DNA from: a virus | Length of the DNA stretch: 27,350 nucleotides | Strand: one strand, 5' to 3' | IMG/VR virus record: IMGVR_UViG_3300009158_000168 | Span: 1 to 27,350 of that record | In this document: in pieces, positions 674 to 23,005 of the stretch | Position numbering within the stretch: the stretch's first letter is position 1 | Layout of the letters: every line of letters begins with the position of its first letter | Position numbers and translations under genes: made by a program | Notes under the pieces: generated by a model | The model's database searches: none | What the model saw: only the letters and a program-made list of their open reading frames with translations | What the model was told of the DNA's origin: nothing

Positions 674-1105
674 CTATGCCGGCACCCCGTCGAGATCCCG
701 CGCCAGGGTAGGACTATCTTCCGATAACACGTCCGTGTCTAGGACGTCGAACACATAGCGAACCGTGTACCCCACTCGCTTAGGATCACTATCCTGGCCG
801 GCGGCCTTGTCGCGTTTCATAATCGGCGCGAATATCGCATAGCCTTGCGAACCCTTGCGAACAATACGCCCGGCAGCGCGCCACTCATGGAACCCCGCTA
901 CCGCTTGCGGGAGATCCCGGTCACGTTCTAACGCTTGCGCGTAGATCATTGCCACATTCCGCCGGGAATACTTAGATAGCACTAATAACGCTAGGTCAAT
1001 ATCTGCCGGATTAGCTTGATCGAGATCATTAGCAGCTATGACTAATAGGTCTAACCTTGCGGCCCTATCGGCACGTTGAGTGTCTGTTAATACTTTGCGC
1101 GACAT
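674..1105 (-). CDS. ArdC-like N-terminal domain protein (anti-restriction / ssDNA-binding type)
   Basis: 143 residues that match the pattern of the ArdC N-terminal domain: a helical first half, then FHEWRAAGRIVRKGSQG (about 72-88) followed by Y-A-I-F-A-P (89-94), and GYTVRYVFDVLDT (about 112-124), corresponding to the family's W-R-x-x-G-R-x-V-x-K-G-x-x-G and Y-x-x-x-x-V-F-D signatures. In ArdC and related plasmid or phage proteins this domain binds single-stranded DNA and is associated with protection of incoming DNA from restriction. The usual C-terminal metallopeptidase part is absent here, so the protein is a stand-alone N-domain. It begins 2 nt after the stop of the 79-aa gene (TAG-tc-ATG), so the two are probably translationally coupled. 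Family assignment is confident from motifs; the anti-restriction role here is inferred. Confidence 0.75.
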   Translation of the reverse strand: MSRKVLTDTQRADRAARLDLLVIAANDLDQANPADIDLALLVLSKYSRRNVAMIYAQALERDRDLPQAVAGFHEWRAAGRIVRKGSQGYAIFAPIMKRDKAAGQDSDPKRVGYTVRYVFDVLDTDVLSEDSPTLARDLDGVPA

Positions 1106-2759: not shown

Positions 2760-4730
2760 ATGGGAACAAAAAGAGCTGTCCCAATTCAGGACAAAGCCAA
2801 GTTCTTTGCTTTAATAGCTTCAGGACGAAACATTAAAGATGCCTGTGCCGAGACAGGGGTTCATGTCAATACGGGTTCCCGCTGGTTGAAACGAGCCAAA
2901 GAGCTAGAAGCGAACCGTAAAGAAGCAAACCATAAAGCCAACACGGGTGCAGGTAACGGTGGTCGCCAAGAACGTGCGCACATGGACTTCATGGACACCA
3001 TTGACTTGCCATCTGCTATTCCGCATGACATGCTTTGTGAGGAAGCCCTTCGAGGGTTGGAAGATTTTGATTATTTTCGCCGGCGATATTTAGGGCGTGT
3101 CCCAAGTCCGTGGCAAGTAGAAGCTGCGTTGACTCTTGTTAAACTATTGGAGTCCGAAGAAAAAGAATTCGTTGTTCTTAACGTTCCTCCAGGTGCGGGC
3201 AAATCCACTTTGTTCCATGATGTTGCTGTGTGGGCGATAGTTCGCAACCGGCGTGTGCGTGTAATGATTGGGTCCGTGTCGCAGAATATGGCGAAGATGT
3301 ATTCCCGTCGTATTCGTGAAACGCTCGAAAGGGTTTCCCCAATTCTCCCTGATCCGATGATGGTTCAAAAGGGGTTAGCAATAGATGCAGAAGGATGTTT
3401 AACAATTGACTATGGAAGATTCAAACCAGTGGACAAAGGTGCCTTATGGCGGGCAGAAGAATTTGTCGTCGAACAACTTGACGGAAACGGGTTGGACAAC
3501 AAAGAGCCAACTGTACGTGCCTACGGAATTGAAGCAGAATTCATCGGACACCGAGCCGACCTCTGCCTTTTTGACGACGTTGCCTCACCAGATAACGCCC
3601 GTGAAAGCGTCGCAAGGGATAAATTACTTGAACGTTGGGATGGAGTTGCAGAAGCACGTTGCGACCCAGGTGGTTTACTGGCTGTTGTTGGACAGAGACT
3701 CGGATCTGGAGATCTCTACGCCCATTGCCTCTCAAAAGAAACCTACGACATTGAAGAAGACATCAGTTATGACGGGTCAGATGTTGAAACTCCTGAAGAT
3801 GTTCAACAAGGTCAACCTGTCCGGCAGAAGAAATACCGCCAAATAATCTATAAAGCCTATTATGAGGAACTAGACACAGGTAAAGAGTCCCGTTCATTCA
3901 AATCCCTGCCATACCCCGACGGTCCCCTGCTAGATCCCCGTCGTTTGCCGTGGAAAGACCTGTCATTTATTCGATACTCCAAACCTGACCTGTTTAACGT
4001 GGTGTATCAGCAAGAAGACCTTGATCTTGACACCCGACTGGTACACCGAACGTGGATTACTGGTGGGTTAGGACCAGATGGGGTTGACTATCCAGGCTGT
4101 ATAGATAACCACCGTCAACCTGGGCATATCCCTGAAGGTTTAGCCCACCCGTGGATCAGTATCGTAGCTGTAGACCCCAGCCCTACAATGTTTTGGGCTT
4201 TTGTATGGATCATCTACCAGCCTCAAACAAACCTTTATCACGTAGTGGATATCGAGCGTGTCAAATTATCCGCTGAAGAAGTCCTTGGATACGACACCAT
4301 GACCAGTCAATACTCTGGGCTGATGGACGAATGGCAAGAACGGTCATACCAAATGGGTTATCCCATCTCTCACTGGGTTGTAGAGATCAACGCAGCCCAA
4401 CGGTTCCTTTTAGCCCACGACTTTGTACGCAAATGGCAAGCCCTACATAGAGTCAATGTGATACCACATACCACTAGCCGAAATAAACTAGATGAATCCC
4501 TTGGTGTTGAGGCTTTACTGCCAGCGGTCATTCGTTCAGGGGCTTTACGCCTACCTTCCATGAGTGGTAACTGGAAAACTTTGGCAGCTACAGACGAGTT
4601 AACTAAATGGGCTAGAGATAAAAAAAGCGGCACAGACATTGTTATGGCTTTGTGGATGGCAATTTTGAACCTGCCAAACCTAACACAAGCAAAGGCTCCA
4701 CCACGGCAATGGCGACCAAAATGGCTATGA
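2760..4730 (+). CDS. terL: terminase large subunit with fused N-terminal HTH
   Basis: ATP-driven DNA packaging motor and nuclease. Residues about 12-50 form a helix-turn-helix (ACAETGVHVNTGSRWLKRA) of the kind found in small terminase subunits or other DNA-binding domains; no separate small terminase gene is seen nearby. The ATPase has Walker A PPGAGKST (143-150), Walker B LCLFDD (268-273) and the following VGQRLGSGDLY (310-320), equivalent to the coupling motif. The C-terminal RNase H-like nuclease has its three acids at D472 (AVDPSP), E542 (VVEINA) and D626 (TDIVMALWMA). All key residues are present and 656 residues is a normal length for a fused form. The start follows from the leaderless-type promoter at 2742-2750. 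Confidence 0.95.
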   Translation: MGTKRAVPIQDKAKFFALIASGRNIKDACAETGVHVNTGSRWLKRAKELEANRKEANHKANTGAGNGGRQERAHMDFMDTIDLPSAIPHDMLCEEALRGLEDFDYFRRRYLGRVPSPWQVEAALTLVKLLESEEKEFVVLNVPPGAGKSTLFHDVAVWAIVRNRRVRVMIGSVSQNMAKMYSRRIRETLERVSPILPDPMMVQKGLAIDAEGCLTIDYGRFKPVDKGALWRAEEFVVEQLDGNGLDNKEPTVRAYGIEAEFIGHRADLCLFDDVASPDNARESVARDKLLERWDGVAEARCDPGGLLAVVGQRLGSGDLYAHCLSKETYDIEEDISYDGSDVETPEDVQQGQPVRQKKYRQIIYKAYYEELDTGKESRSFKSLPYPDGPLLDPRRLPWKDLSFIRYSKPDLFNVVYQQEDLDLDTRLVHRTWITGGLGPDGVDYPGCIDNHRQPGHIPEGLAHPWISIVAVDPSPTMFWAFVWIIYQPQTNLYHVVDIERVKLSAEEVLGYDTMTSQYSGLMDEWQERSYQMGYPISHWVVEINAAQRFLLAHDFVRKWQALHRVNVIPHTTSRNKLDESLGVEALLPAVIRSGALRLPSMSGNWKTLAATDELTKWARDKKSGTDIVMALWMAILNLPNLTQAKAPPRQWRPKWL

Positions 4731-4768: not shown

Positions 4769-6607
4769 ATGAAATCAGTTGAAGAAATCGTTGATCTATA
4801 CAGAGAGCGTCTTGAAGCGCAAGGTCCGATTCTCAATCAAATGCGGGAAGTACGCCGCCTAGCTAACGGTGATGTTGTTGTCCCTCTTAATGAACTTGAC
4901 CGTTCAGCTCGTTCTTCTGTAGCTAACCTACTGGTTCAGGGTCTAGATCAAATGTCTATGCGTGTCGCATCTACCATGCCGTCGCCTTATTTCCCTGCAA
5001 TGCGTGAAGGACAGGATCGTTCTATGCAACTTGCTCGTGACCGGAAGCGGGCAATGCTTGCCATTTGGGATCAGAACCGCATGAACATGAAGATGCGTCG
5101 CCGTGCTAGGCACTTACTTGCATACAGCAACTCGCCTATTTTTATTAAACCCAACTTTGATAAGCACATCCCTGAATGGCAGCTTCGCAACCCGCTTGAT
5201 ACCTTCCCTGCGCCGACCATAGATATTGACAACCCAGTCCCAGATAACTGCATCTTCACATACGCACGAACATACCGTTGGTTAACCCAAAACTATGGCG
5301 ACAAAGTAAACGGAATCCTTCGTGTAGGGCAACCATCGTGGGACACAATGTTCAAAATCCTTGAATACGTCTGCGACAACGAAGTAGTTACCTGTGTTAT
5401 CGGATCTGAAAAAGGGATGGCGATGGAATCGGGCGCACCATTCATGGGTTCCCACGTTGTTGAACTAGAACGAATCAGCAACAAAACAGGTATGCCACTT
5501 GTAGTAGTGCCACAACGCATCACCCTTGACAAGCCACACGGACAATTCGACGGTCTAATGGGTATGTACTACACCCGTGCAAGATTGCAAGCTCTCACCG
5601 AAATAGCTATTGAGCGTGGAATCTTCCCAGATGAATACCTCATTGCCCGCCCAGGTGAAAACCCAGAGATTATTCAGATTGCTGATGGTAAAACAGGGCA
5701 ACTTGGTGTTGTTAAAGGTGGAGATATTCAGGTACAAAACATCTCACCTGGATACAAAACAGACGTAGCTCTTGACCGTCTTGAACGCCAAGAACGCCTC
5801 GAAGGTTCTATCCCAGCAGAGTTCGGTGGAGAATCAGGCACCAACATCCGTACTGGTCGCCGTGGAGAAAACATCCTCGCAGCAACAGTTGACTTCCGTG
5901 TACAAGAAGCCCAAGATTTGTTCGCTTCGTCAATGGTTGAAGAAGACAAGATTGCTATCGGAATCGAAAAAGCCTATTGGGGTAGCTACTCCAAATCATT
6001 CTTTGTTTCAGGAATGGGTGGTGGAGTCAAGGACTACACACCAAACAAACTATGGGAAACAGACTTCCATTATGTTTCATACTCCGCAGCCGGTTCAGAT
6101 GTGAACAACCTCATCGTCGGTCTTGGTCAGCGTCTTGGTACAGGACTTATGTCTAAAGAATCAGCTCGTGAAGCAGACCCACTTATCGCAGATCCAGAGA
6201 TGGAAAAAGACCGCATCGTTGCTGAAGGAATCGAAGCTGCATTGTTGTCTTCTATTCAGGCACAAGCCGCAGATCCGAACGGTCCATACCAGCCAGACGA
6301 CCTTGCGTACATTGCTGAACAGGTTGGTTCTAACAAGATGTCGCTTCCTGAAGCAATCATGTCTGCACAGAAACGTGCGCAAGCACGACAAGCAACACCT
6401 GCCCCTGCCGGCGCACCAGAAACAATGCCAGGTCTTGCACCACCAGGCATGGGAGCCGAACAACCAGCAGGTCCTCCGACTGGAGCTGGCGGTCCACCTT
6501 CGCTAGAATCATTACTAGGTCAACTAGGTGGTGGCGCAGGTGCAGCTGCACAGCCACAATCACCAGGTGGAGTAATGGCACTTGCTAATAGTCTTGGAGG
6601 GGCATAA
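4769..6607 (+). CDS. portal protein
   Basis: Forms the twelve-fold ring at one capsid vertex through which DNA enters and leaves and to which the tail attaches. Support comes from position directly after the terminase, the 612-residue length and the sequence style: N-terminal helices (SVEEIVDLYRERLEAQ), a membrane-free alpha/beta core with the order LxNPLDTFPAP near residue 146, and a long acidic helix in the second half. The last 65 residues or so are Pro/Gly/Ala/Gln-rich and probably disordered. I recognise it as the portal type of uncultured actinobacterial phages rather than from a single diagnostic motif. A ribosome binding site AAAGGTGA precedes the ATG. Confidence 0.8.
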   Translation: MKSVEEIVDLYRERLEAQGPILNQMREVRRLANGDVVVPLNELDRSARSSVANLLVQGLDQMSMRVASTMPSPYFPAMREGQDRSMQLARDRKRAMLAIWDQNRMNMKMRRRARHLLAYSNSPIFIKPNFDKHIPEWQLRNPLDTFPAPTIDIDNPVPDNCIFTYARTYRWLTQNYGDKVNGILRVGQPSWDTMFKILEYVCDNEVVTCVIGSEKGMAMESGAPFMGSHVVELERISNKTGMPLVVVPQRITLDKPHGQFDGLMGMYYTRARLQALTEIAIERGIFPDEYLIARPGENPEIIQIADGKTGQLGVVKGGDIQVQNISPGYKTDVALDRLERQERLEGSIPAEFGGESGTNIRTGRRGENILAATVDFRVQEAQDLFASSMVEEDKIAIGIEKAYWGSYSKSFFVSGMGGGVKDYTPNKLWETDFHYVSYSAAGSDVNNLIVGLGQRLGTGLMSKESAREADPLIADPEMEKDRIVAEGIEAALLSSIQAQAADPNGPYQPDDLAYIAEQVGSNKMSLPEAIMSAQKRAQARQATPAPAGAPETMPGLAPPGMGAEQPAGPPTGAGGPPSLESLLGQLGGGAGAAAQPQSPGGVMALANSLGGA

Positions 6608-7005: not shown

Positions 7006-7328
7006 TGGCTTTTATAACTAAAGATCTTCCCTTAAAACTTGAAGATGTCCAAACATGGGAAACACAACGGGCAGAACGTATCAACACATACAAATCTATT
7101 TACACCCAAAACACCGCACAAGAATTGATTGATGCGGCAAGTAATTTCAATTGGCTTCACCCACAAATCACAGCCGCTTTAATTCTTAATGGTGCCAACT
7201 ATCTAGTTCAAGACGCTGCAACACATGCAGCTGAAAAAATGGCTGATGCTGGCATAGCTCCAGCTGATCGTGTAACAGCCAATCGTCGTCTTAAAGGATT
7301 AACAAAATCAATTATGGATAATCAATAA
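7005..7328 (+). CDS. hypothetical protein, 107 aa
   Basis: Mostly helical, soluble, 107 residues, with no recognised motif. It is joined on both sides by one-base stop/start overlaps (TAATG at 7003-7007 and at 7326-7330), so its expression should follow that of the portal and the large internal protein. Position suggests a virion or assembly protein. Confidence 0.7.
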   Translation: MAFITKDLPLKLEDVQTWETQRAERINTYKSIYTQNTAQELIDAASNFNWLHPQITAALILNGANYLVQDAATHAAEKMADAGIAPADRVTANRRLKGLTKSIMDNQ

Positions 7329-10300
7329 TGGGTTGGTCAAATCCTTTTGATTTTATTGGTGATCTTAAAGACACGGCTTTTGAATTTATCTATTCAAAAG
7401 GTAAATCAGCAACCAATGCCATACCTGCCGACGTGCGAGAAGAACTTGGTGTAATAGCAAAACCTGTCGTTGTCGGAACAAAAGTAGGGACAAGAACAGT
7501 TGCTGCCGCAGCTGACTTCCCTATCCAAACATTAACTAACTCATTAGCTTTTCTGTACAATAATCCAGAACTATATGCACCAATAATGAAAGGCAACCGT
7601 GGTCCTGGATTCAAAAAAAACGATGCTTCTTATTTAGATCAACTTAAAGGCATCGTCACAAATACAACAGCCGGTCAAGTAATTGCAGATGCTCTCCCAG
7701 GTGGCGACAAACTTGATATTGGCAGTGGATTTTTTGTTGGAGGCAGAACACAAGAAGATGTTTCTAAAGGAAAAATTGAAACACAACCACAAATTTATGG
7801 ACATACATTTACAGTAGGTAGAGCCTTTGCTGCACCACTTGCTGATGTTGGTATGATTGAACCAGGTAGTACAGCATGGAACACTATTTCTGGTGGTATT
7901 GATGCTGCTTACACTTTGGCAGCCGACCCCCTCAACTGGCTACCTGCTGGAGCAGTTTTAGATCTTGGAAAACTTGGTGACATCCCACTTACCGCTGGGG
8001 CTAGGGCAGGTAAACGAGCAAAAGTTACTACCACCCTGTCAAGCCAAGCAAGAAAAATTCTTGAAGAAGCAGTACAAGATGGGAGAGTCACACTTGATGC
8101 GGCTGGTGCCATCAACAATGGTCGACGTACTGTGAACCCGAACAACTGGGAAGCTTTCAAAGTAACCCCCAAGGGACAGAAATGGCTTGAATTATTTGTG
8201 GGTCCTGACTCTGGAACATCCGCAGAAATTTGGCGCAGATCAGGAGGAGCAATCCCTCCAGGCACCGCCGTTAAACTTCAAAATGCCAACACCCTTGATG
8301 AAGTAATAGCAATTTTTGATGATGCAGTATATACAGCCGACCCATTAACTCATGTTCGTACAATGCCTGGAATTGACCCTCGCCCTGTTGTAACTAAAAC
8401 CGGAGTGGTAATTAAAGGCAACGTGTCAAGGTATCGCCCGTTTGCTGACACACTTCCAGAGTCCACAGACTTCCCATTAAACAATCCTTTAACTGCCTCT
8501 AAAAACGCTGACAGTGTTATGGGTGTTCTTGAAGTTCCAATGCCCGTGCGCAACCGATTGATGACACAACTATTTGAAGCATTTAGTGGTACAGATGATA
8601 CAAAAATTTTTGATTGGTTAGATGAGTTTGAAAGTGTTGTTATTAAAGATCAACTAGGCAAATGGAATTATAGTGAAGACGAAATTGCTCGTATTGCTTC
8701 TTGGAAAAGAAAATTTCAAGAAACCGTAACCGGTTATGTAACAGATAGTGCAGGATCGTCAGTCCCTTTGCCTTGGCTTGTTGGTGGGACAAACGGCGGG
8801 TATGGTCCACTTCTTATCAGCCAGCAATTAAGAGTAAACCCTATCTTGATTGACCCTGTTGATCTTCGACAAATTGCAGACAGATTAGGTCCTTTGCGTT
8901 CACGACTTGAAAAACTTCGTCGTACCGTAGTAGAAGAAATTATTGATCCTGTTACTGGTGAACGAATTATTTTAGAAACTAAACCAAACATTGCTGTAGC
9001 AGCCCCACTTTGGGTTGTAGAAGCTGCTGGCGATCTTGTTGATTATTCAATGTCAAGGGTTTGGAAAGCTAATGTACTTATTAGACCTAAGTATATTATT
9101 AAAACACTTCCGGAAGAAACTGCTCGTTTAGCATTTTCTGGTATTTTTGACCACCACTATCAATACATGATGCAACTATTTAGTGACAGTAACAACATTG
9201 ACGCAATGGGTAGGGTTATCGCAACGTCTCGCCAAGCTTCTAAAATGGAAGCAGAAATTACTGAACTAAATCGTCTTCTTCGTAAATATGAAGACTTAAA
9301 AGCAGCTGGAGTAACAACTAAATTTACCGTTCCCATTGACCAAGTAATTGCTAACACCCAATCTAAAATAGACTTACTAGAACAAGGGTTAATTGATTTT
9401 GATGCAAGATTTGCAGAGGAACTTCCTGGCATGGATGACGCTATTTTGCGTGGTCAAGCAAACCGAACAAATGATTTGCTTAATAACCCAGCTGCTGTAA
9501 GTGGGGCTGCATCTAGAGGTCATGTTCAGTCAGTTGAACTGGCAGTGAACCCAAGACTTTGGTCTAGCACTATGGCACAACGGATTGCTGAACGTGCTTC
9601 AAATGATTATGTAAGAAAAATAGCTGAAGATTTAATAAATGGTGTATCTGTTGACGACATTACATTGCGCTTTATGGACGACAAAGACCTTGGTCCAATT
9701 CTCAAAAAATACATTGCAGGCGAAGGCAACCTTGATCCTAATTATGTTTGGGATTTTGATGGCATAAGAAAGTTTGTTCAAACAACAGTTAACGACATTG
9801 AAAATTACACAATGGGCGACGATTTAATTCTTGAAGCTATTTCCACAAACAGATTTGGTGGAGAAGAACTATCGGGTCGTAGAGGTTTTGCAGGGTATAC
9901 AGGTAAAGCAAATCTTGATTTCAAGCCAAACAACCTTCTTAAAAAGCACATCTTTGATACTCATTTAGCAAATCCATTGGCTCCGGCACGTATCAACTAC
10001 TTTCCTTCTGTACTCGACAGATCAAGTGCGACATTAGCTACTGCTCAAAGAGTAAGTAAAAGATATGACGCAATGCTTTCTTTTGCGTGGGATGGGCTAT
10101 ACGGTGCAGCGTCAGACAAACTGGCACGTGTCCCAACATGGAACCAAGCCAAATGGCAACGCATTATTGAAATGGTCCCAGTCATGGACAAAGCAGAAGC
10201 TGACCGTCTTGTAACAATAGTAAACCAAACAGACATTCTTCAATCGTTAAAAGATGACATTATTGAAGCCGCCGCATCAGCCCAAGGTGAAATGACTGTT

Positions 10301-11992
10301 GAAGATGTAAACCTTCTTGGTGAACTATTTGCTACACGATTCACAAAAGATACTTACTTTGATGCTTCCCGCAAAACAAAATTTGGTGCAGCTCACAGAA
10401 AGATTTTTCCTTTCTTTGACGCTTTTGTTGAGTTGACAGGTTCGGCTTTGAAAATGGCAACCAATCCTAAAGTTATCCACCGTGCAGATCAACTAATGGG
10501 TGAATTGCGTCAAAACACTTTCTTTGGTACAGACGTTGATGGCGACGGGAAAAAAGATTCTTTTCTTTACAAAGATCCAGTATCGGATCAAGAAATGTTT
10601 GCCTTCTCTGTAGGAGGAGGGTTTCTAAAAGAATGGAGAAAGAACGGTCTTGATTTCAGGGTAGGCAACACTCTTAATAGTCTTTCTCTTATCACAACCA
10701 CATACCCTGGTATCGGTCCGGTAGTCGCAGGTCCGTTAGTTAAAATGCTTCCCGACACAGCAGACTTTGACAAACTACGTGACCTTATTGCACCATTTGG
10801 TATCCCCGATTTATCTAGCCCAGACATTGCCCAGTTTGTTCTCCCTGGTGCATCAGATCAAGTAATGAGAATCCTTGGTTCAAATGGCATAGAATTATTT
10901 TCTAAAGTAGAAGATAGACAAAAAGCTGCACAAACAATTATCCGTGCTTTGCAAGTTGCTTCAGCGACAAAAGACTACGACCCAGTAACCCCAGGTCAAC
11001 AAGGACCCACTGGTTATGAATCCATTGAACAGTGGCAAGCAGATGGTAAAGAACTAGGAACCAAAATTTACGGTCTTATTGGATGGGCTGGATTGTTCCT
11101 ACCTGGTGCGCCTATCGCCCAGTGGACAGCTAAAACCAAAAAAGGCAACGTTCTTATCAGTGTCATTGCTGAACGTTGGAACCAGATTGACAAAATGGGT
11201 GACAAGAACGGTCTTAACTATCAAGACAAACTTGAGTTGCTTGTAAACGAATGGGGCAATGAAAACTTTGTTGCTTTCATGCAACCCATTACAGAAAGAA
11301 GTATTGCTGGTTCTTCATCGACCAAGGAATACTACGACTGGTATCGTCTAAACAAACCGGTTGTTGATAAATACAAAAATGTTGGTGGCTATTTTAGCCC
11401 TAAATCAAGTGAACTTGACCCTGATGTTTGGAATATCCAAAAACTTGCTGGCGATGTAAAATACAAAGACCCTGAAAAGTTTGCCATTAACCTTGAATCA
11501 GCTCTTGCTAACTTTGTGTTTAATAGGAACATGAGAGAAGTTATGGCAAGCATCCCACCTGATGAGATGTTTGGAACTTTGGCTAATCTTAAAATTAAAG
11601 AACAGAAAAAGATACAAACCAAAGCGGTTCAAGCGGCTTACCCTAACTGGGATCGGGCAGCGGCAGCTACGGCTTCACAACGCAACCGTCGCATCCAGTT
11701 ACTTGAAGCACGTAAATTCATCGCAGAACCAAGCGTCCAAGATAATGAGGCAGTCAAAGCTGCTACTGAATACTTCAAGTACCGTGACGCAAACGTAGAC
11801 TATACAATCGGTAACTTTTTTCAAGTAACAGAAGATAACTGGGCAACCGCTTCTAAGATTCGTGGGGCTGTGGTTTTACGTCAGGCTTTGTGGGATGAGG
11901 GTGAACGCCTTGCTGAAAAGTATCCTGAGTTTGTGAACTTGTGGCAGAATGTTTTGTCCCGTGAATTTATTTCTATAGAAGTGGAAGATTAA
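7328..11992 (+). CDS. very large internal virion protein candidate, 1554 aa
   Basis: At 1554 residues this is by far the largest gene here. No signal peptide is visible. It includes a likely coiled coil near 640-705 (MEAEITELNRLLRKYEDLKA and a following helix), the stretch RKIFPFFDAFVELTG near 1024-1038, which resembles an F-P-F-x-x-A motif seen in large polyvalent or ejected proteins of phages, and DVDGDGKKDSF near 1069-1079, which has the form of a calcium-binding loop. Short Gly/Pro-rich hydrophobic stretches occur near 1250. It lies between portal and scaffold, where podoviruses often encode proteins ejected with the DNA. I see no RNA polymerase, transglycosylase or protease signature. 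The role as an internal/ejection protein is inferred from size, position and composition. Confidence 0.65.
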   Translation: MGWSNPFDFIGDLKDTAFEFIYSKGKSATNAIPADVREELGVIAKPVVVGTKVGTRTVAAAADFPIQTLTNSLAFLYNNPELYAPIMKGNRGPGFKKNDASYLDQLKGIVTNTTAGQVIADALPGGDKLDIGSGFFVGGRTQEDVSKGKIETQPQIYGHTFTVGRAFAAPLADVGMIEPGSTAWNTISGGIDAAYTLAADPLNWLPAGAVLDLGKLGDIPLTAGARAGKRAKVTTTLSSQARKILEEAVQDGRVTLDAAGAINNGRRTVNPNNWEAFKVTPKGQKWLELFVGPDSGTSAEIWRRSGGAIPPGTAVKLQNANTLDEVIAIFDDAVYTADPLTHVRTMPGIDPRPVVTKTGVVIKGNVSRYRPFADTLPESTDFPLNNPLTASKNADSVMGVLEVPMPVRNRLMTQLFEAFSGTDDTKIFDWLDEFESVVIKDQLGKWNYSEDEIARIASWKRKFQETVTGYVTDSAGSSVPLPWLVGGTNGGYGPLLISQQLRVNPILIDPVDLRQIADRLGPLRSRLEKLRRTVVEEIIDPVTGERIILETKPNIAVAAPLWVVEAAGDLVDYSMSRVWKANVLIRPKYIIKTLPEETARLAFSGIFDHHYQYMMQLFSDSNNIDAMGRVIATSRQASKMEAEITELNRLLRKYEDLKAAGVTTKFTVPIDQVIANTQSKIDLLEQGLIDFDARFAEELPGMDDAILRGQANRTNDLLNNPAAVSGAASRGHVQSVELAVNPRLWSSTMAQRIAERASNDYVRKIAEDLINGVSVDDITLRFMDDKDLGPILKKYIAGEGNLDPNYVWDFDGIRKFVQTTVNDIENYTMGDDLILEAISTNRFGGEELSGRRGFAGYTGKANLDFKPNNLLKKHIFDTHLANPLAPARINYFPSVLDRSSATLATAQRVSKRYDAMLSFAWDGLYGAASDKLARVPTWNQAKWQRIIEMVPVMDKAEADRLVTIVNQTDILQSLKDDIIEAAASAQGEMTVEDVNLLGELFATRFTKDTYFDASRKTKFGAAHRKIFPFFDAFVELTGSALKMATNPKVIHRADQLMGELRQNTFFGTDVDGDGKKDSFLYKDPVSDQEMFAFSVGGGFLKEWRKNGLDFRVGNTLNSLSLITTTYPGIGPVVAGPLVKMLPDTADFDKLRDLIAPFGIPDLSSPDIAQFVLPGASDQVMRILGSNGIELFSKVEDRQKAAQTIIRALQVASATKDYDPVTPGQQGPTGYESIEQWQADGKELGTKIYGLIGWAGLFLPGAPIAQWTAKTKKGNVLISVIAERWNQIDKMGDKNGLNYQDKLELLVNEWGNENFVAFMQPITERSIAGSSSTKEYYDWYRLNKPVVDKYKNVGGYFSPKSSELDPDVWNIQKLAGDVKYKDPEKFAINLESALANFVFNRNMREVMASIPPDEMFGTLANLKIKEQKKIQTKAVQAAYPNWDRAAAATASQRNRRIQLLEARKFIAEPSVQDNEAVKAATEYFKYRDANVDYTIGNFFQVTEDNWATASKIRGAVVLRQALWDEGERLAEKYPEFVNLWQNVLSREFISIEVED

Positions 11993-13915
11993 ATGGCTAT
12001 TACAACTTTAGAATCAGACAAAACAGTTAAAGTCCCTTATGGATTCAAGGGTGAAAAAATAACTATTGCTGAAATGATAAAGACAAAAGAGTTCACATCT
12101 CTTGAACCTTTATTTGCTGAACGTATCTTGGACATGATTCGTGACAACCCATCTATTGGTATTTTGAAAGGTGGCGGTGGTCGAACCGAAGAACAAGTAC
12201 GTAATCTTTTTTATGCTAACTACAAAAAAATCAATGATGCACCCGACTATGAAAACGACGCTTCTAAGTATGAAGAAATTAAATCAGGTAAATTAAAATG
12301 GAACCCTGAAGATAGCCAGTGGTATAGAAGGGCAACAGACAGAACTGTTGCTGTGCCTGGTGGTAGCTGGCATGAAGGTGGATATGCCGTTGACTTTACC
12401 GGCAACATTGATTTAGCTGGCAAGGTTAGTAAAAATTACCAGTTAGAACAAGTTACTGGTACCGGAGAAACACACCATTTCCAGCCTCTTGGTGTTCCTA
12501 TTTCTAAGCGTATGTTTCTTGAATTAAAAAACAACTATGGCATTGACGCTATCAAGACCCCGTTGTCTCCAGATCTTCTTTTGTATATCAACAAAGAGAT
12601 TGCTTCTAACGTCCCTCGCCATCCTCAAAGAATTAAAAAAGTTCTTGATGCAGCTCTTGCTAAGTTCAAAACTACTTTGCCAGGGGCAGATGAGAAAACG
12701 GTTCGTGAGCAATTTTTAACTTTTGCTGGTCAATCTGCTTCCGCTGTCAAGGTTGATTGGAGTCAAGTACGAGAGATAACCCCAACCACTGTCGCCAAGG
12801 CTATTGCGCCGAGAACCACTACCACTTCTACAATTCCCGCAACCACCACAACCGGAGTTCCCAAAACGACAACCACAACGGTTAAGCCCACAACCACAAC
12901 CATTCCTGCGGGTTTGACACCATTAGAAATAATGCAAAATACCGCAGCTGAATATGCAAACAATTTAAGTACCACCACAACAATGGCTCCCCAAACAACA
13001 ACTACAATGCCTGTAACTACCAAACCACCGAAACCAACAAGTACAACTATGGCTCCAACAACAACCACCACCGCTCCCCCCGCAACACAGCCAACAGTTC
13101 CTCGTCCTGGTCAGTCTTCAACCTCAACTACTACAAGCACTTTGCCCCCACGATCAACAACTACCAACCCTGGTCAATCTGTAGCCCCAACCACTACCAT
13201 CCCCACGCAAAACGATGTTCCAGTAGGTATTGCTCCCACTCTATCCAACCCCGCTACATTGTCTGCCGATGGCGGGCAATACGCTTTGGGTGTTTCTGGT
13301 CGTCGAATCTACAACAGCAAAGGCGTACTTGTTAGTTATGAGGGGTATAAATACACAAACCCAACAACGGGCGTGGTGTCTCAACCTCAATACTTTACCG
13401 GCGACGAAGACGCTCTTTATGGTTTATCCATCGAAGCATTGTCTACATTACAAAATGCTATGTATAACGTAGGGAGACTTGGAAAAGGTTATACACCTGG
13501 CGTAGTTGACTCTAAAACAACATCAGCGTATAAAAGTCTTCTTGTCACAGCAAACGGTTATGGAGAAGATTTTGAAACAACAATCTCTCGTTTAGCGACA
13601 ACAGGATCTTCTGCTCGTGGTGGGGCTTTAACTCAATACCGTGTATCCAATGACGCAGATGTTCGAGCAATAATGAACAAGGTTTCCCAGCAAACCCTTG
13701 GACGCAAACTAGGCGAAGGTGATCTCAACAGATTGTCGGGGTTATACCGTGAACTTGAAAGAACTTCTGGACAAAGCAACGCAGCTGAAATTGTTCAACC
13801 ACCGCAGGTTGAAACATTTACACAAAACAAACTAGAAGAAATGTTCCCTGAAGATACCAACGCCCGACAGTTCGGATCATATCTGACAGCAATTGAAAAG
13901 AAGTACAACCTCTAA
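11993..13915 (+). CDS. virion peptidase, M15/VanY-like, with Thr-rich linker
   Basis: Three-part protein of 640 residues. Residues 55-170 look like a zinc D-Ala-D-Ala carboxypeptidase/endopeptidase of the M15 type: GGGGRTEEQ (60-68, corresponding to the family's G-x-R-S...Q), SWHEGGYAVDF (125-135, zinc ligands H127 and D134) and ETHHFQP (159-165, catalytic E159 and zinc ligand H162). Residues about 265-405 are a mucin-like Thr/Pro/Ser linker with many TTTT runs. The C-terminal 230 residues include a segment like a peptidoglycan-binding repeat (GKGYTPGVVDSKTTSAYKSL) and helices. It probably cuts peptide cross-links in the cell wall during DNA entry. It begins directly after the stop of the 1554-aa gene. 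The enzymatic call is good; the entry role is inferred. Confidence 0.7.
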   Translation: MAITTLESDKTVKVPYGFKGEKITIAEMIKTKEFTSLEPLFAERILDMIRDNPSIGILKGGGGRTEEQVRNLFYANYKKINDAPDYENDASKYEEIKSGKLKWNPEDSQWYRRATDRTVAVPGGSWHEGGYAVDFTGNIDLAGKVSKNYQLEQVTGTGETHHFQPLGVPISKRMFLELKNNYGIDAIKTPLSPDLLLYINKEIASNVPRHPQRIKKVLDAALAKFKTTLPGADEKTVREQFLTFAGQSASAVKVDWSQVREITPTTVAKAIAPRTTTTSTIPATTTTGVPKTTTTTVKPTTTTIPAGLTPLEIMQNTAAEYANNLSTTTTMAPQTTTTMPVTTKPPKPTSTTMAPTTTTTAPPATQPTVPRPGQSSTSTTTSTLPPRSTTTNPGQSVAPTTTIPTQNDVPVGIAPTLSNPATLSADGGQYALGVSGRRIYNSKGVLVSYEGYKYTNPTTGVVSQPQYFTGDEDALYGLSIEALSTLQNAMYNVGRLGKGYTPGVVDSKTTSAYKSLLVTANGYGEDFETTISRLATTGSSARGGALTQYRVSNDADVRAIMNKVSQQTLGRKLGEGDLNRLSGLYRELERTSGQSNAAEIVQPPQVETFTQNKLEEMFPEDTNARQFGSYLTAIEKKYNL

Positions 13916-14973
13916 TGGCTACCGCACAAGACAAAGCTTTCCTTGCCGAAATAAACAAAAGACTTGGAACTAAATACACATCTGTCAAGGCATATCTGAC
14001 CGACAATGGAGAACTTGAACCGAAAGGAAGTAAAGCTGCTGGTCGTTTAGCCGCCCTTGAAAATTTTAGAGGCAAGTCAAAACGGACAGCAATGGTTTTG
14101 TCCGGAGCGGTTTTTGAGGAATCAAAAAAAATCTATGGTTCGACAGCAAACCTGTACAACATCCCTGAACTTAAAACCATTTTTGATGATGCGTTTGTTA
14201 ACCAGTGGGATTCAGACACCCTGATTAGGGCTATTGATAATACCAAATGGGCGACCAGCCGTACCCAGTCGCAGGAAACTTATGACGTTCAAAAGGCTAC
14301 TGATCCTGTAGAACTACAAAACAAAGTGGACAGTATTGTTCCTACTGTTCGCAGGGTCCTTGCTGGCAAAGGCATTACTCTTGATGAAGCATCAATAAAA
14401 TCTATTGCTGAAAAGGGAACCCGTAACGGTTGGACTGCCGAACAATGGGACTCTGATTCCGCAGCTGAAGCCATCCGTTTACAACCAACCCCAGCAACCG
14501 CTGGCGCATCGATGGCTCCGGTGTCTGCTGTCACTGCGTCATCTTTGCGTATGTTGGCAAAACAATTTGGTGTTGACCCGACAGATACAACGCTCAATTC
14601 TTGGGTTAACGAGATTTCTACTAACACCAAAACCAAGGAACAGTTCAATGAATCAATGCGTTCCTCTGCCCAAACTTTGTACCCGACCCTTGGTGAGCGT
14701 TTGAAAACAGAAACCTTTGACGCAATCACATCTCCTTACAGAACTCTCTATTCTAAAGTGTTGGAAGTAGACGAAGGCAGTGTTGACCTGACAAGCCCAA
14801 CCTATTCCAACCTGTTTAACGCCGGCGATGAAAAGAACAAAAGAATGATGAACGCAACCGAATGGACATCCTTCTTACGGAAACGTCCTGAATGGCAAAA
14901 TACCCAGAACGCCTATCAAGAATACGCAAGTGCCGCTTCTACTCTAAACAAAATCTTCGGAGGAACACTGTAA
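13915..14973 (+). CDS. phage structural/internal protein, 352 aa, unknown function
   Basis: Helical soluble protein. The C-terminal 130 residues (TLYPTLGERL, then SPYRTLYSKVLEVDEGSVDL, ending with R-P-E-W-Q-N-T-Q-N-A) match a pattern I recall from internal or tape-like proteins of uncharacterised actinobacterial phages, including the R-x-x-P-x-W-x-x-T-x-N-A signature. It is coupled by TAATG to the M15 protein before and to the 290-aa protein after. With these it probably forms a set of ejected or tail-interior proteins. Confidence 0.65.
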   Translation: MATAQDKAFLAEINKRLGTKYTSVKAYLTDNGELEPKGSKAAGRLAALENFRGKSKRTAMVLSGAVFEESKKIYGSTANLYNIPELKTIFDDAFVNQWDSDTLIRAIDNTKWATSRTQSQETYDVQKATDPVELQNKVDSIVPTVRRVLAGKGITLDEASIKSIAEKGTRNGWTAEQWDSDSAAEAIRLQPTPATAGASMAPVSAVTASSLRMLAKQFGVDPTDTTLNSWVNEISTNTKTKEQFNESMRSSAQTLYPTLGERLKTETFDAITSPYRTLYSKVLEVDEGSVDLTSPTYSNLFNAGDEKNKRMMNATEWTSFLRKRPEWQNTQNAYQEYASAASTLNKIFGGTL

Positions 14974-15845
14974 TGCCTGCATCAGATCTACTTAAAGGTG
15001 TCATCTCAAAGTTCAGATTAGACCCAACACAAACTAAAGCCATCTTTAATTTCTTCGATCAAAAAGTTTCTGACCCTACGGTTGTGTTTACTGAAGAAAC
15101 AATTTCTTATTATGTTTCCCAAGACCCAACTATCCAAACCATATTTGATACTCGTTTTGCTGGTAATAAAGAACTTCGTGACGCAGGAAAACCTGAACTG
15201 TCATACAGTAGTTACATCACACGAGAACAAGAATTCAAAAACGACCTTCGAGATGCAGGATTTCCACCAGGGTTTTACGACACCCCTGATGCCATCGCTA
15301 AACTAATCAGCGGAGAAACATCCCGCCAAGAACTACAAGATCGTGCCAAAGCCGCTTATGTAGTAGTCAAGCAAGCAGATCCCGTTATTGTTTCTGAGTT
15401 AAGAAGGCTTTATGGTCTTGGTGATGGCGACCTAGCCGCTTATTTCCTTGACCCAACCCAAGCAGTAGATGCCATTGGTAAACGCCTCACAGGTCAAGAT
15501 CTTCTCCGTCGTACTGCCGCTGCCCAGATTGGTGCGCAGGCACAGACTCAGGCAGGTATCGGTCTTTCTGCCGCCCAAGCTGAATCAATCCAAACAAGTG
15601 GCTTTAGTACCTCTGATGCTCAACAGAAATTTGCCGATATTGGCGCACAACAGGAACTTTACAATCCACTTCAAGGTGAGCAAGCCATCACACAAGAACA
15701 GCAAATTGCTGGGACCTTCGGTACAAACGCTGAAGCACGTAAAGCAATCACAGCTCGCAAGCGTTCACGCCAAGCCGCTTTTGAAACTGGTGGTGGATTC
15801 GCAACAACACAAGGCACGTCAGCACTCGGCACAGTAGGGCAGTAG
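14973..15845 (+). CDS. phage structural/internal protein, 290 aa, unknown function
   Basis: The start at 14973 is set by CGGAGGA (14958-14964) about 8 nt upstream and the TAATG overlap; an in-frame ATG at 14892 lies deep inside the previous gene and is unlikely. The N-terminal half is helical with several D/P-rich turns; the central motif LYGLGDGDLAAYFLDPTQA (about 145-165) and the Ala/Gln-rich helical region after it are familiar from phage proteins that sit before the scaffold and capsid genes. No function is established. Confidence 0.65.
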   Translation: MPASDLLKGVISKFRLDPTQTKAIFNFFDQKVSDPTVVFTEETISYYVSQDPTIQTIFDTRFAGNKELRDAGKPELSYSSYITREQEFKNDLRDAGFPPGFYDTPDAIAKLISGETSRQELQDRAKAAYVVVKQADPVIVSELRRLYGLGDGDLAAYFLDPTQAVDAIGKRLTGQDLLRRTAAAQIGAQAQTQAGIGLSAAQAESIQTSGFSTSDAQQKFADIGAQQELYNPLQGEQAITQEQQIAGTFGTNAEARKAITARKRSRQAAFETGGGFATTQGTSALGTVGQ

Positions 15846-15879: not shown

Positions 15880-15973
15880 TCCCGACGGGAAGACCTACTG
15901 ACAGCCCCCCTAGTCAGCAGCGTAAATATGGGGTGTAAAAACTAAGTAGCCATCGCAACCCTCCAGTGCGATG
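15880..15973 (+). promoter_or_regulatory. structured leader upstream of scaffold gene
   Basis: The 148-nt gap between 15846 and 15993 holds three successive inverted repeats: TCCC-gac-GGGA (15880-15890), CTGAC/GTCAG (15898-15917) and CATCGCA-N9-TGCGATG (15951-15973, perfect 7-bp stem). The last one ends 6 nt before the AAGGAGAG ribosome binding site. None is followed by a T run, so they do not look like terminators; they may stabilise the mRNA or adjust translation of the scaffold. Confidence 0.4.
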
Positions 15974-15993
15974 TGGACCAAGGAGAGTGCCAT

Positions 15994-16452
15994 ATGTCAG
16001 AATACGAAGATTTCGATTCAGAATTCGACGACCAAACGGAAACCGAACCCACACAGAATCCTGTACGGGCAAGGATGAAGCAGTTGGAAAAAGAAGCCAG
16101 AGAGCTACGCAAACAAGTTGCGGAATTCTCAGCAACCCAACGAGAACTAGCTTTCGTTAAAGCAGGAATTGATCCCGCTTCACCGCAAGCCAAGTATTTC
16201 GTTAAAGGTTACGACGGTGAACTAACTCCAGAAGCGATCCGTGAAGCCGCCGTGGAAGCACAGCTAATTACACCCCTAGCGTCGGAAGATGCAGACAAGC
16301 AAGCATGGAAGCAGTCCAACAAGATTGCAGCCGGTAGCGAGTCAGCCCCTCCTCCACCGTCGTGGAATAAAAGGATTAGTGAAGCATCATCTGAACAAGA
16401 GGTTTACGCTATTTTTGCTGAGGCGCAAGCCCAAGGTATTGACCTTGGGTAA
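15994..16452 (+). CDS. capsid scaffolding protein candidate, 152 aa
   Basis: Acidic N-terminus (YEDFDSEFDD) followed by a basic coiled coil (MKQLEKEARELRKQVAEFSA, about 30-49) and a helical C-terminal part. This is the usual organisation of internal scaffolds, and the gene lies directly before the major capsid gene. The ATG at 15994 has AAGGAGAG (15980-15987) at ideal distance; an in-frame ATG at 15973 would put the ribosome binding site inside the gene. Scaffolds guide capsid shape and then leave or are digested. A small gap follows before the capsid gene. Confidence 0.75.
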   Translation: MSEYEDFDSEFDDQTETEPTQNPVRARMKQLEKEARELRKQVAEFSATQRELAFVKAGIDPASPQAKYFVKGYDGELTPEAIREAAVEAQLITPLASEDADKQAWKQSNKIAAGSESAPPPPSWNKRISEASSEQEVYAIFAEAQAQGIDLG

Positions 16453-16487: not shown

Positions 16488-17471
16488 ATGGCTGATTATT
16501 ACGCCAATGAGATAAGCACCGCAAGCTTGTCAACAGACCAAGTAGCTTTTGAGAAGTTGGCATATTTTGCCCTTCGCCCAGAAATGTATTTTGACCAGTT
16601 CGCATCTGTTCAAGCTACAAACGCTACCAACCCAGGTGCTTCAGTGAAGTTCACCGTATTCGCAGATCTTGCAGCGGCTACAACGCCACTCGGTGAAGCT
16701 GAGGATGTAACCCCTGTCTCAATGAGCGACAGCCAAGTTACTGTAACCCTTGAAGAATACGGTAACGCAACTGTTACCACCGCTAAGCTCCGTGCATCAT
16801 CGTTCCTTCCTGTGGATCCAGTAGCTGCTCAGGCTGTTGGTTACAACGCTGGTTTGTCAATTGACACCATCGCTCGTAGTGCCATCCAGGCTGGTACAAA
16901 CGTGATTTACGCAACGGGTGGAGCGCAAACCGCTTCTAGCCGTATCACGATGAAGACCGACCAGACGCTTACCGCTAAAGATGTTCGTCGTGCAGTGGCT
17001 GAATTGCGTGGAGCTAACGTTCCAACAATCGGTGGCAACTATGTCGGTTTCATCCACCCAGACGTTTCGTACGACCTTCGTGGTATTACAGACGCATCTG
17101 GTTGGCGTGACTCATACAAGTACACCAACGCAATGCCTCTTTACAACGGTGAAATTGGTATGTTTGAAGGCGTTCGTTTCATGGAGTCGCCTCGTGCGCC
17201 TCTGTTCACAAACGCTTACAACGGTGCAGGTGCCGCTGGTACTGGTGACTCATACGGAACCCTCATCATGGGACAACAGGCTCTTGCCAAGGCTGTCTCA
17301 ATGGGTGGCGAGTATGGCGACCAGCCAACAATCGTGTACGGAACAGTTACAGACCTTCTGAAGCGTTTCCGCCCAGTTGGTTGGAAGCATTTCGTTGGTT
17401 ACGCAGTATTCCGTCAGGAAGCTTTGCGTCGCATCGAATCTGCTTCAAGCATTGGTACAAACAACTCCTAA
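16488..17471 (+). CDS. major capsid protein, N4-gp56 family
   Basis: 327 residues with HK97-fold character of the N4-gp56 type: an N-terminal part with VKFTVFADLAAATTPLGEAE (about 54-73), then VTVTLEEYGNATVTTAKLR (84-102), a long alpha/beta middle with a T-x-x-D-x-R-R-A-V-A-E-L-R helix (about 163-175), G-x-x-H-P-D-V-x-Y-D-L (187-197), a loop with I-G-M-F-E-G-V-R-F (224-232) and a C-terminal F-R-Q-E-A-L-R-R strand/helix. It forms the icosahedral shell. Ribosome binding site AAGGAA lies 8 nt before the ATG. It is followed by a strong terminator, consistent with being the end of a highly expressed scaffold-capsid unit. Confidence 0.92.
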   Translation: MADYYANEISTASLSTDQVAFEKLAYFALRPEMYFDQFASVQATNATNPGASVKFTVFADLAAATTPLGEAEDVTPVSMSDSQVTVTLEEYGNATVTTAKLRASSFLPVDPVAAQAVGYNAGLSIDTIARSAIQAGTNVIYATGGAQTASSRITMKTDQTLTAKDVRRAVAELRGANVPTIGGNYVGFIHPDVSYDLRGITDASGWRDSYKYTNAMPLYNGEIGMFEGVRFMESPRAPLFTNAYNGAGAAGTGDSYGTLIMGQQALAKAVSMGGEYGDQPTIVYGTVTDLLKRFRPVGWKHFVGYAVFRQEALRRIESASSIGTNNS

Positions 17472-17792: not shown

Positions 17793-18061
17793 AGCATAGA
17801 GAGACTCATCCGTTTTTGGATGTTGAAGGTTGTTTTGGTTGCAGGGTTGCTGGTGTTCAGATGGGGTCTAACTCTACGACCACTAAGGGTGAATCGGTTG
17901 CTGAGATTAACCAGCGTGAAAAGAACTGGTCTAAAGATATGCCTGCCTATAAGCGTTTACGGGCTGAAGGGCTACAGCCAAAGACTATTGATGGCTGTCA
18001 TGCTGTTGAGCAGTTGGCTACTTCACGGCATCAAATCGAAGGAACGCCAGTACCTCTTTAG
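17789..18061 (+). CDS. conserved phage protein with CxxC, 90 aa
   Basis: Starts with GTG in a GTGA overlap with the previous stop. It has a C-F-G-C motif at about 15-18 and then a charged helical part (REKNWSKDMPAYKRLRAEGL, about 43-62) and a G-C-H-A-V-E segment. This H-P-F-x-x-x-E-G-C-F-G-C beginning and D-x-x-A-Y-K-R-L-R helix recur in a family I know from actinobacterial phages. The cysteines could hold a metal together with nearby histidines, but only two are in close spacing. Function unknown. Confidence 0.65.
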   Translation: MKHRETHPFLDVEGCFGCRVAGVQMGSNSTTTKGESVAEINQREKNWSKDMPAYKRLRAEGLQPKTIDGCHAVEQLATSRHQIEGTPVPL

Positions 18062-18070
18062 TGGTAATAT
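18062..18070 (+). promoter_or_regulatory. extended -10 box, probable leaderless start
   Basis: TGG-TAATAT (18062-18070), 9 nt before the ATG at 18080, the same distance as at the terminase gene. There is no ribosome binding site and no -35. Confidence 0.4.
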
Positions 18071-18079
18071 ACCCTTGAT

Positions 18080-18418
18080 ATGGCTGCACCTGCAAAACAA
18101 GATTTAATTATCACTCGTGGTGATACGGAAACCGTTGTGGTGACAATGGTTGATGAAGATGGCACAGCTGTCAACATCACGGGTCGTACCTACACATCCC
18201 AGATGCGCACCACCCCAGATATTTCTGCTATCAGCATCACAGGTACATGTGCTGTAACTGATGGTCCAAACGGCAAGCTGACCGCCACGTTCAGTGCTAC
18301 CGGCACTGCGGCTCTTGATCCTGGCTTTCTTTATTGGGATTTGCAAGAGAACGCTTCGGGTGTTATTTCTACTATTCTGTCTGGGACTGTCACGGTTCTT
18401 GCCGATGTGACTCGGTAA
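18080..18418 (+). CDS. tail/baseplate-type beta protein, 112 aa
   Basis: All-beta protein starting with a pattern common in phage baseplate or fibre-anchoring domains: D-L-x-I-x-R-G-D-T (8-16), then [13 protein letters not shown] (25-37). This resembles the BppU-type N-terminal domain of tail fibres and baseplate proteins. It is followed immediately by fibre genes, which supports a role as a link or hub. Specific function is not certain. Confidence 0.6.
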
Positions 18419-18420
18419 CG

Positions 18421-19326
18421 ATGGCTACTACAGACGTTGAGGTTGTTCGTGGTTCTACGACTGTTGGGTTAACTACTTCTGCATCTATTACGGTTGTTGG
18501 TTCTTCTGCTGCTGGTCCACAGGGGGCTACTGGTCCGACAGGTCCGACTGGTGCTACAGGCGCACAAGGTGTTACTGGACCTACAGGCTCACAAGGTATT
18601 CAAGGTGTTACTGGACCGACTGGTCCGACAGGTGCCGCTAGTACCGTTACAGGACCAACTGGGGCAACTGGTGCAGCCTCTACCGTTACTGGACCTACTG
18701 GACCTACAGGACCTACAGGGGCAGCATCCACGGTTACTGGACCTACAGGTGCGCAGGGAGTCACAGGACCGACTGGACCTACTGGAGCTGCTTCGACAGT
18801 CACGGGACCGACTGGACCTACAGGCGCAGTTGGTGCTGCGTCTACTGTCACGGGACCTACTGGTCCTACGGGGGCGGTTGGTGCTGCAAGCACAGTCACT
18901 GGACCTACTGGTCCTACTGGGGCTACAGGTGCAGCTTCAACAGTAACTGGACCTACAGGTCCTACGGGTCCTGCTGGTACGAACGGTTTTGTTGGTTCCA
19001 ATGGTGCGACGGGTCCGACTGGACCAACAGGTGCAGCTGGAGCTAACGGGGCTACGGGTCCGACTGGTGCTACAGGTCCAACTGGTCCGATAGGCGGGCA
19101 AGGACCGACGGGTCCTACAGGTCCTACGGGTGGCACAGGTGCTGCAGGCGCAAACGGTGCGACAGGACCTACTGGACCTACAGGTGCGACAGGTGCAGCT
19201 TCGACAGTGACAGGTCCGACTGGGGCTGCTGGAGCGACAGGTGCTACTGGACCTACGGGAGCATCTGCACCGACTCAAACAACAAGTAATCTAATGACTT
19301 ACACAATGATGAACATGGAGTTCTAA
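18421..19326 (+). CDS. collagen-like fibre protein, 301 aa
   Basis: Residues from about 32 to 282 are Gly-X-Y repeats of mainly GPT, GAT and GAA type, without Pro at every X position, as in bacterial and viral collagens; it should form a triple helix. The repeats are interrupted eight times by ASTVTG, which changes the Gly phase by one residue. The first 30 residues are a short beta-like head ([14 protein letters not shown]) and the last 20 ([21 protein letters not shown], about 281-301) may nucleate the trimer. The ATG at 18421, 2 nt behind the previous stop, is preferred over an earlier in-frame ATG at 18334 inside the previous gene. It is likely a tail or head fibre. Confidence 0.85.
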
Positions 19327-21967: not shown

Positions 21968-23005
21968 ATGAAAATTGCTGTATACACAATCGCTCTTAAC
22001 GAGCAACAACATGTCCAGCAATGGGCAGACTCCTGCACCGATGCTGACTATCGCCTCATCCTAGACACAGGCTCAACAGACCAAACCACGGCACTCGCCC
22101 ACCAACTCGGTATCCACACCGTTACCCGTGTTGTCAGTCCGTGGCGGTTTGACACAGCCCGCAACATGGCACTCTCCATGCTCCCCAAAGACATTGACCT
22201 GTGCGTCGCTTTAGACATGGATGAGCAACTGCAACCAGGTTGGCGTGAAGCCCTAGAAGCCATCCCTGCTGGTACGACCCGCCCCCGATATAAATACATC
22301 TGGTCATGGAACCCAGACGGGTCGGAAGGCTTGGTTTATGGTGGCGACAAAATCCACGCACGGCACGGATACAGCTGGAAACACCCAGTCCATGAAGTCC
22401 TCAAACCCACCGACGGTGAAACCCAACACTGGGTAGACGGGCTACAAATCCACCACCACCCAGACAACACAAAGTCCCGCAGTCAATACCTACCCCTACT
22501 CAAACTTGCAGTAGAAGAAGACACTAGGGATGACCGCAACCAGTTCTACCTAGCCCGTGAACTGTACTTTGCCGGTGACTACAGCCTTGCCCAATACCAC
22601 TTTGCACGACACCTAGACCTATCGACGTGGGGTTCAGAACGAGCAGCATCCCACCGGTGCCTAGCCAAAATGGTTCCCCACGCAGCCGACTACCACCTGT
22701 ACCGAGCAATAGCTGAATCACCATCCCGCCGTGAATCATGGGTAGACCTAGCCCAGTATTACCACAACCAACACAACTGGCTCGCCTGTCGCAACGCAGC
22801 ATCTATGGCTTTAGCAATCACCGAAAAACCATTGGACTATCTCTGTGAAGCAGAAGCCTGGGGTTGGCTACCACACGACCTAATGGCAATCGCCTCATAC
22901 CACCTCGGTGACACTGACGAAGCGTTCTTTCACGGATCACAAGCTGTGGCATTAAACCCTGATGATGAAAGGCTTCAAACAAACCTGACACATTATCGGC
23001 TATGA
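21968..23005 (+). CDS. family 2 glycosyltransferase with TPR-like C-terminus
   Basis: GT-A glycosyltransferase of 345 residues. Nucleotide-sugar site: I-A-L-N-E (8-12), D-T-G-S-T-D (33-38), the D-x-D of LDMDE (82-86) that binds the metal, and K-H-P-V-H-E-V-L (138-145), typical of the WaaE/SunS-like group. Residues about 190-340 are helical repeats (FYLARELYFAGDYSLAQYHF; YHLGDTDEAFFHGSQAVALN) of TPR character, which would hold a protein acceptor. Codons are much more C-ended than in the neighbouring fibre genes, which suggests separate acquisition. It lies in the fibre cluster and has its own ribosome binding site AAGGGA. Likely acceptors are virion proteins or the host surface; this is inferred. 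Confidence 0.85.
   Translation: MKIAVYTIALNEQQHVQQWADSCTDADYRLILDTGSTDQTTALAHQLGIHTVTRVVSPWRFDTARNMALSMLPKDIDLCVALDMDEQLQPGWREALEAIPAGTTRPRYKYIWSWNPDGSEGLVYGGDKIHARHGYSWKHPVHEVLKPTDGETQHWVDGLQIHHHPDNTKSRSQYLPLLKLAVEEDTRDDRNQFYLARELYFAGDYSLAQYHFARHLDLSTWGSERAASHRCLAKMVPHAADYHLYRAIAESPSRRESWVDLAQYYHNQHNWLACRNAASMALAITEKPLDYLCEAEAWGWLPHDLMAIASYHLGDTDEAFFHGSQAVALNPDDERLQTNLTHYRL

Follow-up and report, generated by a model that had tools for sequence, protein, structure and literature searches.

A predicted M15-type peptidase head that behaves as an exchangeable cassette in a putative virion protein of a probable actinobacteriophage

Does a viral open reading frame (ORF) that opens with a peptidase-like domain and runs on through a threonine-rich tract encode an enzyme of entry, an enzyme of lysis or neither, and is that domain a fixed part of the protein? 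The question was raised by a 27,350-base IMG/VR virus record (IMGVR_UViG_3300009158_000168), which was analysed as one stretch and is called the window below. Terminase, portal, capsid, collar and fibre-like genes were present; no tape-measure gene was recognised in the window, and Rfam and tRNA scans of it were empty. The nearest isolates by capsid protein were Streptomyces phages such as FlowerPower (Beephvirinae, NC_048706), and Abafar, another member of the Beephvirinae, has been described as a podovirus (PMC11536984). A relative of the window encodes a WhiB-type regulator (L123:1675-2019, minus strand; Pfam 1.5e-15). Given this regulator and the Streptomyces phages as nearest isolates, the host is probably actinobacterial. 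Elsewhere in the window, the N-terminal domain of an ArdC-type anti-restriction protein was found at 674-1105 (minus strand; Pfam 2.1e-6), and the tail-gene cluster at 18334-19326 includes a collagen-like GPT-repeat protein. The features used in the analysis are as follows:

2760..4730, plus strand: terminase large subunit
4769..6607, plus strand: portal protein
7328..11992, plus strand: putative large internal/ejection protein, 1554 aa; positional counterpart of FlowerPower gp9 (1635 aa)
11993..12802, plus strand: predicted M15 (VanY-type) zinc peptidase head, residues 1-270, with R64, S125, H127, D134, E159 and H162
12809..13237, plus strand: Thr/Pro-rich, presumably disordered tract, residues 273-415
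13238..13915, plus strand: adaptor domain A (residues 416-640), which matches the protein of head-less relatives over its main part at 88% identity
13915..14973, plus strand: adaptor domain B, encoded on its own; its homologs in FlowerPower are the C-terminal portions of gp11 and gp12
14973..15845, plus strand: gp13-like protein; start placed at 14973 to fit the 290-aa start of relatives (mechanical ORF start at 14892)
15973..16452, plus strand: probable scaffold protein, named from its position directly before the capsid gene; acidic; phrog_7813, function unknown
16488..17471, plus strand: major capsid protein
21968..23005, plus strand: GT2-like glycosyltransferase with TPR (phrog_13126)

The M15-headed ORF spans 11993-13915 on the plus strand and encodes 640 aa. 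A preliminary description had placed the gene at 12110-13260, which covers residues 40-423, so that the full ORF is larger. The four residues named there (H127, D134, E159 and H162) were all found at the positions given, and the linker estimated at about 140 Thr/Pro-rich residues measured 143 aa, 52 of them Thr and 24 Pro. The C-terminal virion domain also proposed there agrees with the gene's position and with a profile match, over a short stretch, between it and a syntenic Streptomyces podovirus gene. A layout of M15 zinc peptidase, Thr/Pro-rich tract and domain of a probable virion protein is thus supported at the level of sequence; at the domain level the preliminary description was largely right, and it missed that the head is present in some relatives and absent from others and is exchangeable. 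The full protein had no relative in 50,697 phage records (tblastn), in which the head alone drew chance matches only. A sequence search of the PDB returned nothing relevant, no family for the whole 640-aa protein was found in PHROG or NCBIfam, and no membrane segment was detected in the protein.

A profile search with peptidase M15 families, suggested in the preliminary description, gave a divided result. The Pfam VanY model scored the window head at 17.3 bits (E 0.0042), below its curated cut-off of 25, a cut-off that serves the model as a convenience and does not define the family. The motif PGxSxHxxGYAVDF was then searched in viral contigs and recovered two relatives of the same layout (L036 and L041), which scored above the cut-off (6.1e-15 and 9.5e-14) and which were linked to the window family by hhalign (E 3.5e-8, 30% identity). 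Despite the sub-threshold Pfam score, the M15 assignment is carried by this profile-profile link and by the motifs. The head contains both the SxHxxGxAxD motif (S125, H127, D134) and the ExxH motif (E159, H162). In an alignment of 38 sequences, including 30 cellular M15 proteins, all catalytic positions of the window family lined up with the cellular ones; R64, S125, H127 and D134 were invariant, and E159 and H162 were conserved in at least 90%. R64 and S125 are likewise typical of M15. No family member, even at 55-57% identity, has lost any of the ligands, the catalytic Glu or R64.

The structure of the head was modelled using AlphaFold2. The mean pLDDT was 45.8 with five near-identical sequences and rose to 82.3 (pTM 0.80) with the deeper alignment. 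The best 22 Foldseek matches of this model in the PDB were all M15 enzymes (VanY, VanXY, LdcB/DacB, Ply500, LysB4; best E 1.5e-4), with modest TM-scores to the solved structures (0.30-0.35 by query; by target, no higher than 0.53). Alignment, VanY-type phage proteins, predicted model and Foldseek agree, and together they support reading the head as an M15 (VanY-type) zinc peptidase. It shares with the known members of this family (VanY, VanXY, LdcB, Ply500, LysB4) the zinc ligands, the catalytic Glu, the Arg before the active site and, in the model, the fold. It differs from them in an extra N-terminal region and a long insertion, in having E-T-H-H where the known enzymes have E-P-W-H, and in its fusion to a putative virion adaptor.

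The surroundings of the gene were compared with those in FlowerPower, where the order is terminase, endolysin, portal, small genes, 1635-aa protein, gp10, gp11 (NlpC/P60), gp12 (SLT), gp13, tRNAs, a 162-aa gene and capsid. In the window it is terminase, portal, small genes, 1554-aa protein, M15-headed gene, domain-B gene, gp13-like gene, probable scaffold and capsid. The M15-headed gene is therefore located between the portal and large protein on one side and the scaffold and capsid on the other, as gp11 and gp12 are in Beephvirinae. Domain A had no convincing Pfam or PHROG family in eight relatives and shares a 47-residue motif with FlowerPower gp10 (4e-5; hhalign probability 70%). Domain B matched the C-terminal parts of gp11 and gp12 (3e-22 and 5e-23), in which it is preceded by an NlpC/P60 head (1.7e-29) and an SLT head (3.6e-5), respectively, and the window's domain-B protein matched 29 Streptomyces phage records. 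Depositors of the Streptomyces relatives have named gp12 “minor tail protein” or “glycosylase”. From synteny and the matches of domains A and B, the window gene would correspond to the gp10 slot with a head added, the Streptomyces heads being on gp11 and gp12, and its product may be counted among putative internal (ejection) proteins encoded between portal and scaffold. It resembles gp11 and gp12 in its place in the gene order, in the homologous adaptor domain B next to it and in having an N-terminal wall hydrolase; unlike them, it carries a different catalytic head and a long Thr/Pro tract, and its head is on adaptor A with domain B as a separate gene (in relatives L003-L005 the head is on B).

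At the same place, relatives L021, L022, L023, L025, L026 and L027 encode a head-less protein, and their neighbouring genes are mostly 81-98% identical to those of the window. This protein has 269-279 aa, starts with MAPNPMAP and continues through Thr/Pro-rich residues into domain A. The more distant L029 likewise lacks an M15 head, which makes gain of the head in the window lineage the simpler reading. Three backgrounds were distinguished (window/L021/L029; L002/L007; L003-L005). Between them, identity is 22-32% for the large protein and for domains A and B, 77-97% for the portal and 78-93% for the M15 head. Between L002 and the window, for example, the head is 93% identical, the large protein 28%, and domains A and B 27%; L003-L005 carry the head as a fusion with domain B and not with A. 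Being absent from close relatives and 76-93% identical on different carriers in more distant phages, the M15 head, with part of the tract, appears from these comparisons to behave as an exchangeable cassette, which is the main new result. The block at 7328-14973 (large protein, A and B) as a whole occurs in at least three such types, and the portal, scaffold and capsid genes that go with them are 64-98% identical.

DNA similarity between the window and L021 ends at the stop codon of the large gene and returns within the tract, so that the junctions of the head cassette are the start codon and the Thr/Pro tract. The point at which the gene passes into its head-less form maps near residues 350-372 (about nt 13040-13110); there the window is L002-like on the left (KPTSTTMxPxTTTT) and L021-like on the right (TQPTVPRPG), with a precision limited by the low complexity of the tract. 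Tentatively, the low-complexity DNA coding for Thr and Pro could serve as a recombination seam at which wall-cutting heads plug in or drop out.

The tract itself is far richer in these residues than the other window genes (7.9% T, 4.9% P), and it is uneven, including an island that is not Thr-rich, TPLEIMQNTAAEYANN. Its Thr codons are mixed (ACA 38%, ACC 37%, ACT 19%, ACG 6%; longest run of an identical codon, 3), and microsatellite expansion was rejected as its origin for this reason. Head-less relatives keep 49-59 residues of it, so it cannot be solely a tether for the enzyme. The proposal in the preliminary description that its length would let the enzyme reach through a thick wall gained no support from the comparisons. 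The preliminary description had further held that such linkers are frequent in actinobacterial surface proteins. This found weak support, (ACN)8 runs occurring in 26 of 80 genomes from an actinobacterial phylum sample and in 22 of 80 from a Sphingomonas-centred one, with great abundance confined to a handful of the actinobacterial genomes sampled. The papers searched contained nothing on threonine-rich linkers in phage lysins. In phage ct2KA10, the gp13-like protein of the same gene block contains a long Gly-Thr repeat, also a low-complexity tract (L019:15339-16931).

Two further kinds of protein were noted in relatives. Between the collar gene and a candidate lysin, just past the window's end, five relatives encode a Thr-stalk protein (L122:8678-9706, L123:10655-11734 and L124:10138-11151 on the minus strand; L126:5698-6651 and L128:8565-9548 on the plus strand). 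It has a signal-peptide-like start in four of the five, a short N-terminal domain, a stalk with up to 30 Thr per 40 residues and a hydrophobic C-terminus ending in a basic tail, and would fit the description of a mucin-like surface protein far better than the window protein does. Proteins of about 175 aa (L123:9000-10700, L124:9427-9954, L126:7061-7579, L128:9958-10485) carry an SxHxxGxAxD-like motif (SVHATGAAVD or SVHATGRACD), had no Pfam match and are possibly, judging by this motif, a divergent M15-like lysin family.

In our judgement the window protein is rather probably an entry-stage virion peptidoglycan peptidase of a short-tailed actinobacteriophage, probably internal and ejected, with its head an exchangeable cassette on adaptor A or B. 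Virion location, ejection, zinc binding, substrate and entry role are all proposed here from the genes themselves. Zinc would be held by H127, D134 and H162 with E159 as the general base, and during delivery of virion proteins the head would act on the host wall by cutting its peptide portion. Domain A would anchor the polypeptide in the virion, next to the product of the domain-B gene and the large internal protein of 1554 aa, and the Thr/Pro tract would be an unfolded hinge between head and domain A. Entry is favoured over lysis because of the gene's position in the internal-protein block and because M15-headed relatives have separate candidate lysins.

A lysis role would make the protein an endolysin that is freed as infection ends and binds the wall through domain A. 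M15 enzymes are commonly endolysins (Ply500 and LysB4 are in the Foldseek list), the domain A pattern LQ..L..G..DxkT..Ay recalls peptidoglycan-binding repeats, although without a Pfam match, and no other lysin was seen in the window, which is incomplete. The gene is, however, within the head/internal-protein block and outside any lysis cassette, and close relatives that lack the head still keep domain A. A separate small candidate lysin, without a Pfam match, is encoded beyond the tail genes in the M15-headed records G006 and G007, the head-less G009 has a free-standing VanY-type M15 protein after its tail genes (189 aa, 5.1e-17), and Streptomyces phages with homologous adaptors also have a separate endolysin gene; with these, an endolysin is quite improbable. 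That the protein is instead a part of the tail tip or tail knob, digesting the wall from outside without being ejected, is unlikely. The depositors' label of minor tail protein for domain B homologs would suit it, as would a long (143 aa) and probably flexible tract that gives the head reach, but collar and fibre-like genes form a separate cluster after the capsid gene, the M15-headed gene adjoins the portal and the 1554-aa protein, often the place of internal proteins, and part of the tract is kept in head-less forms. An inactive head that has a peptidoglycan-binding or structural role alone might be suspected from its dispensability in close relatives and its poor Pfam score; the family-wide retention of ligands, catalytic Glu and R64 makes this very improbable.

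Equally hard to credit is a tract that is an O-glycosylated, mucin-like stalk, modified by a phage glycosyltransferase and shielding or displaying the enzyme. The Thr density is high, and the GT2-like gene at 21968..23005 is the enzyme to which the preliminary description had pointed. This gene was nevertheless present in all six records that cover the tail cluster, head or not (G003, G006 and G007 with the head; G009, G011 and G013 without it, at the same place), and in one of the three head-less records (L033) the adaptor-A protein is without any Thr tract. Moreover, the substrates of protein O-mannosylation in actinobacteria are exported proteins, whereas the assembly of virion proteins is cytoplasmic. 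The proposal was weakened by this co-occurrence test, and the link between glycosyltransferase and tract was dropped. At about 18061-18080 the window is without a 360-aa glycosyltransferase-like gene that is found in relatives (L021:13151-14233, L023:11478-12560, L033:13128-14207).

An entry-stage peptidase in an internal protein would have its closest analogues in T7-like phages, in whose ejection proteins peptidoglycan-hydrolase domains swap between gp16 and gp15 homologs (PMC8954989). Movement of hydrolase heads between ejection proteins is thus already known there; new, by this analogy, would be an M15 head doing so. The T7 gp16 and K1E gp15-like proteins share with the window protein a hydrolase in an internal (here putative) virion protein and swapping of the hydrolase domain, but their hydrolases are of transglycosylase or lysozyme type and their hosts Gram-negative, and no sequence relation to the window proteins was found. 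The transmembrane segments of the large T7 gp16-like ejection protein are absent from the 1554-aa protein: neither it nor FlowerPower gp9 had a hydrophobic 19-residue window above 1.5 or a membrane segment. The phi29-like phages of Gram-positive hosts have been described as lacking ejection proteins (PMC8954989). For these two reasons, an ejectosome in the present phage group would be an extrapolation. A VanY-like domain in a virion protein is also seen in the tape measure protein of the Rhodobacter phage RcZahn (tblastn with L036 as query, E 9e-4), which differs in being long-tailed, by its tape measure gene, and in having no match to adaptor A or B.

A short-tailed phage whose host is thick-walled has to breach that wall to deliver its DNA, and the entry machinery of such phages is poorly described. 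If the seam reading is true, one phage group trades entry enzymes between very different delivery modules. Natural pairs are provided by close relatives that differ in whether they have the M15 head, and by the occurrence of one head on three internal-protein backgrounds; because such pairs exist, what an entry hydrolase contributes to host range and to entry is testable. The M15 head family may also be a source of enzymes for abundant, mostly uncultured actinobacteria.
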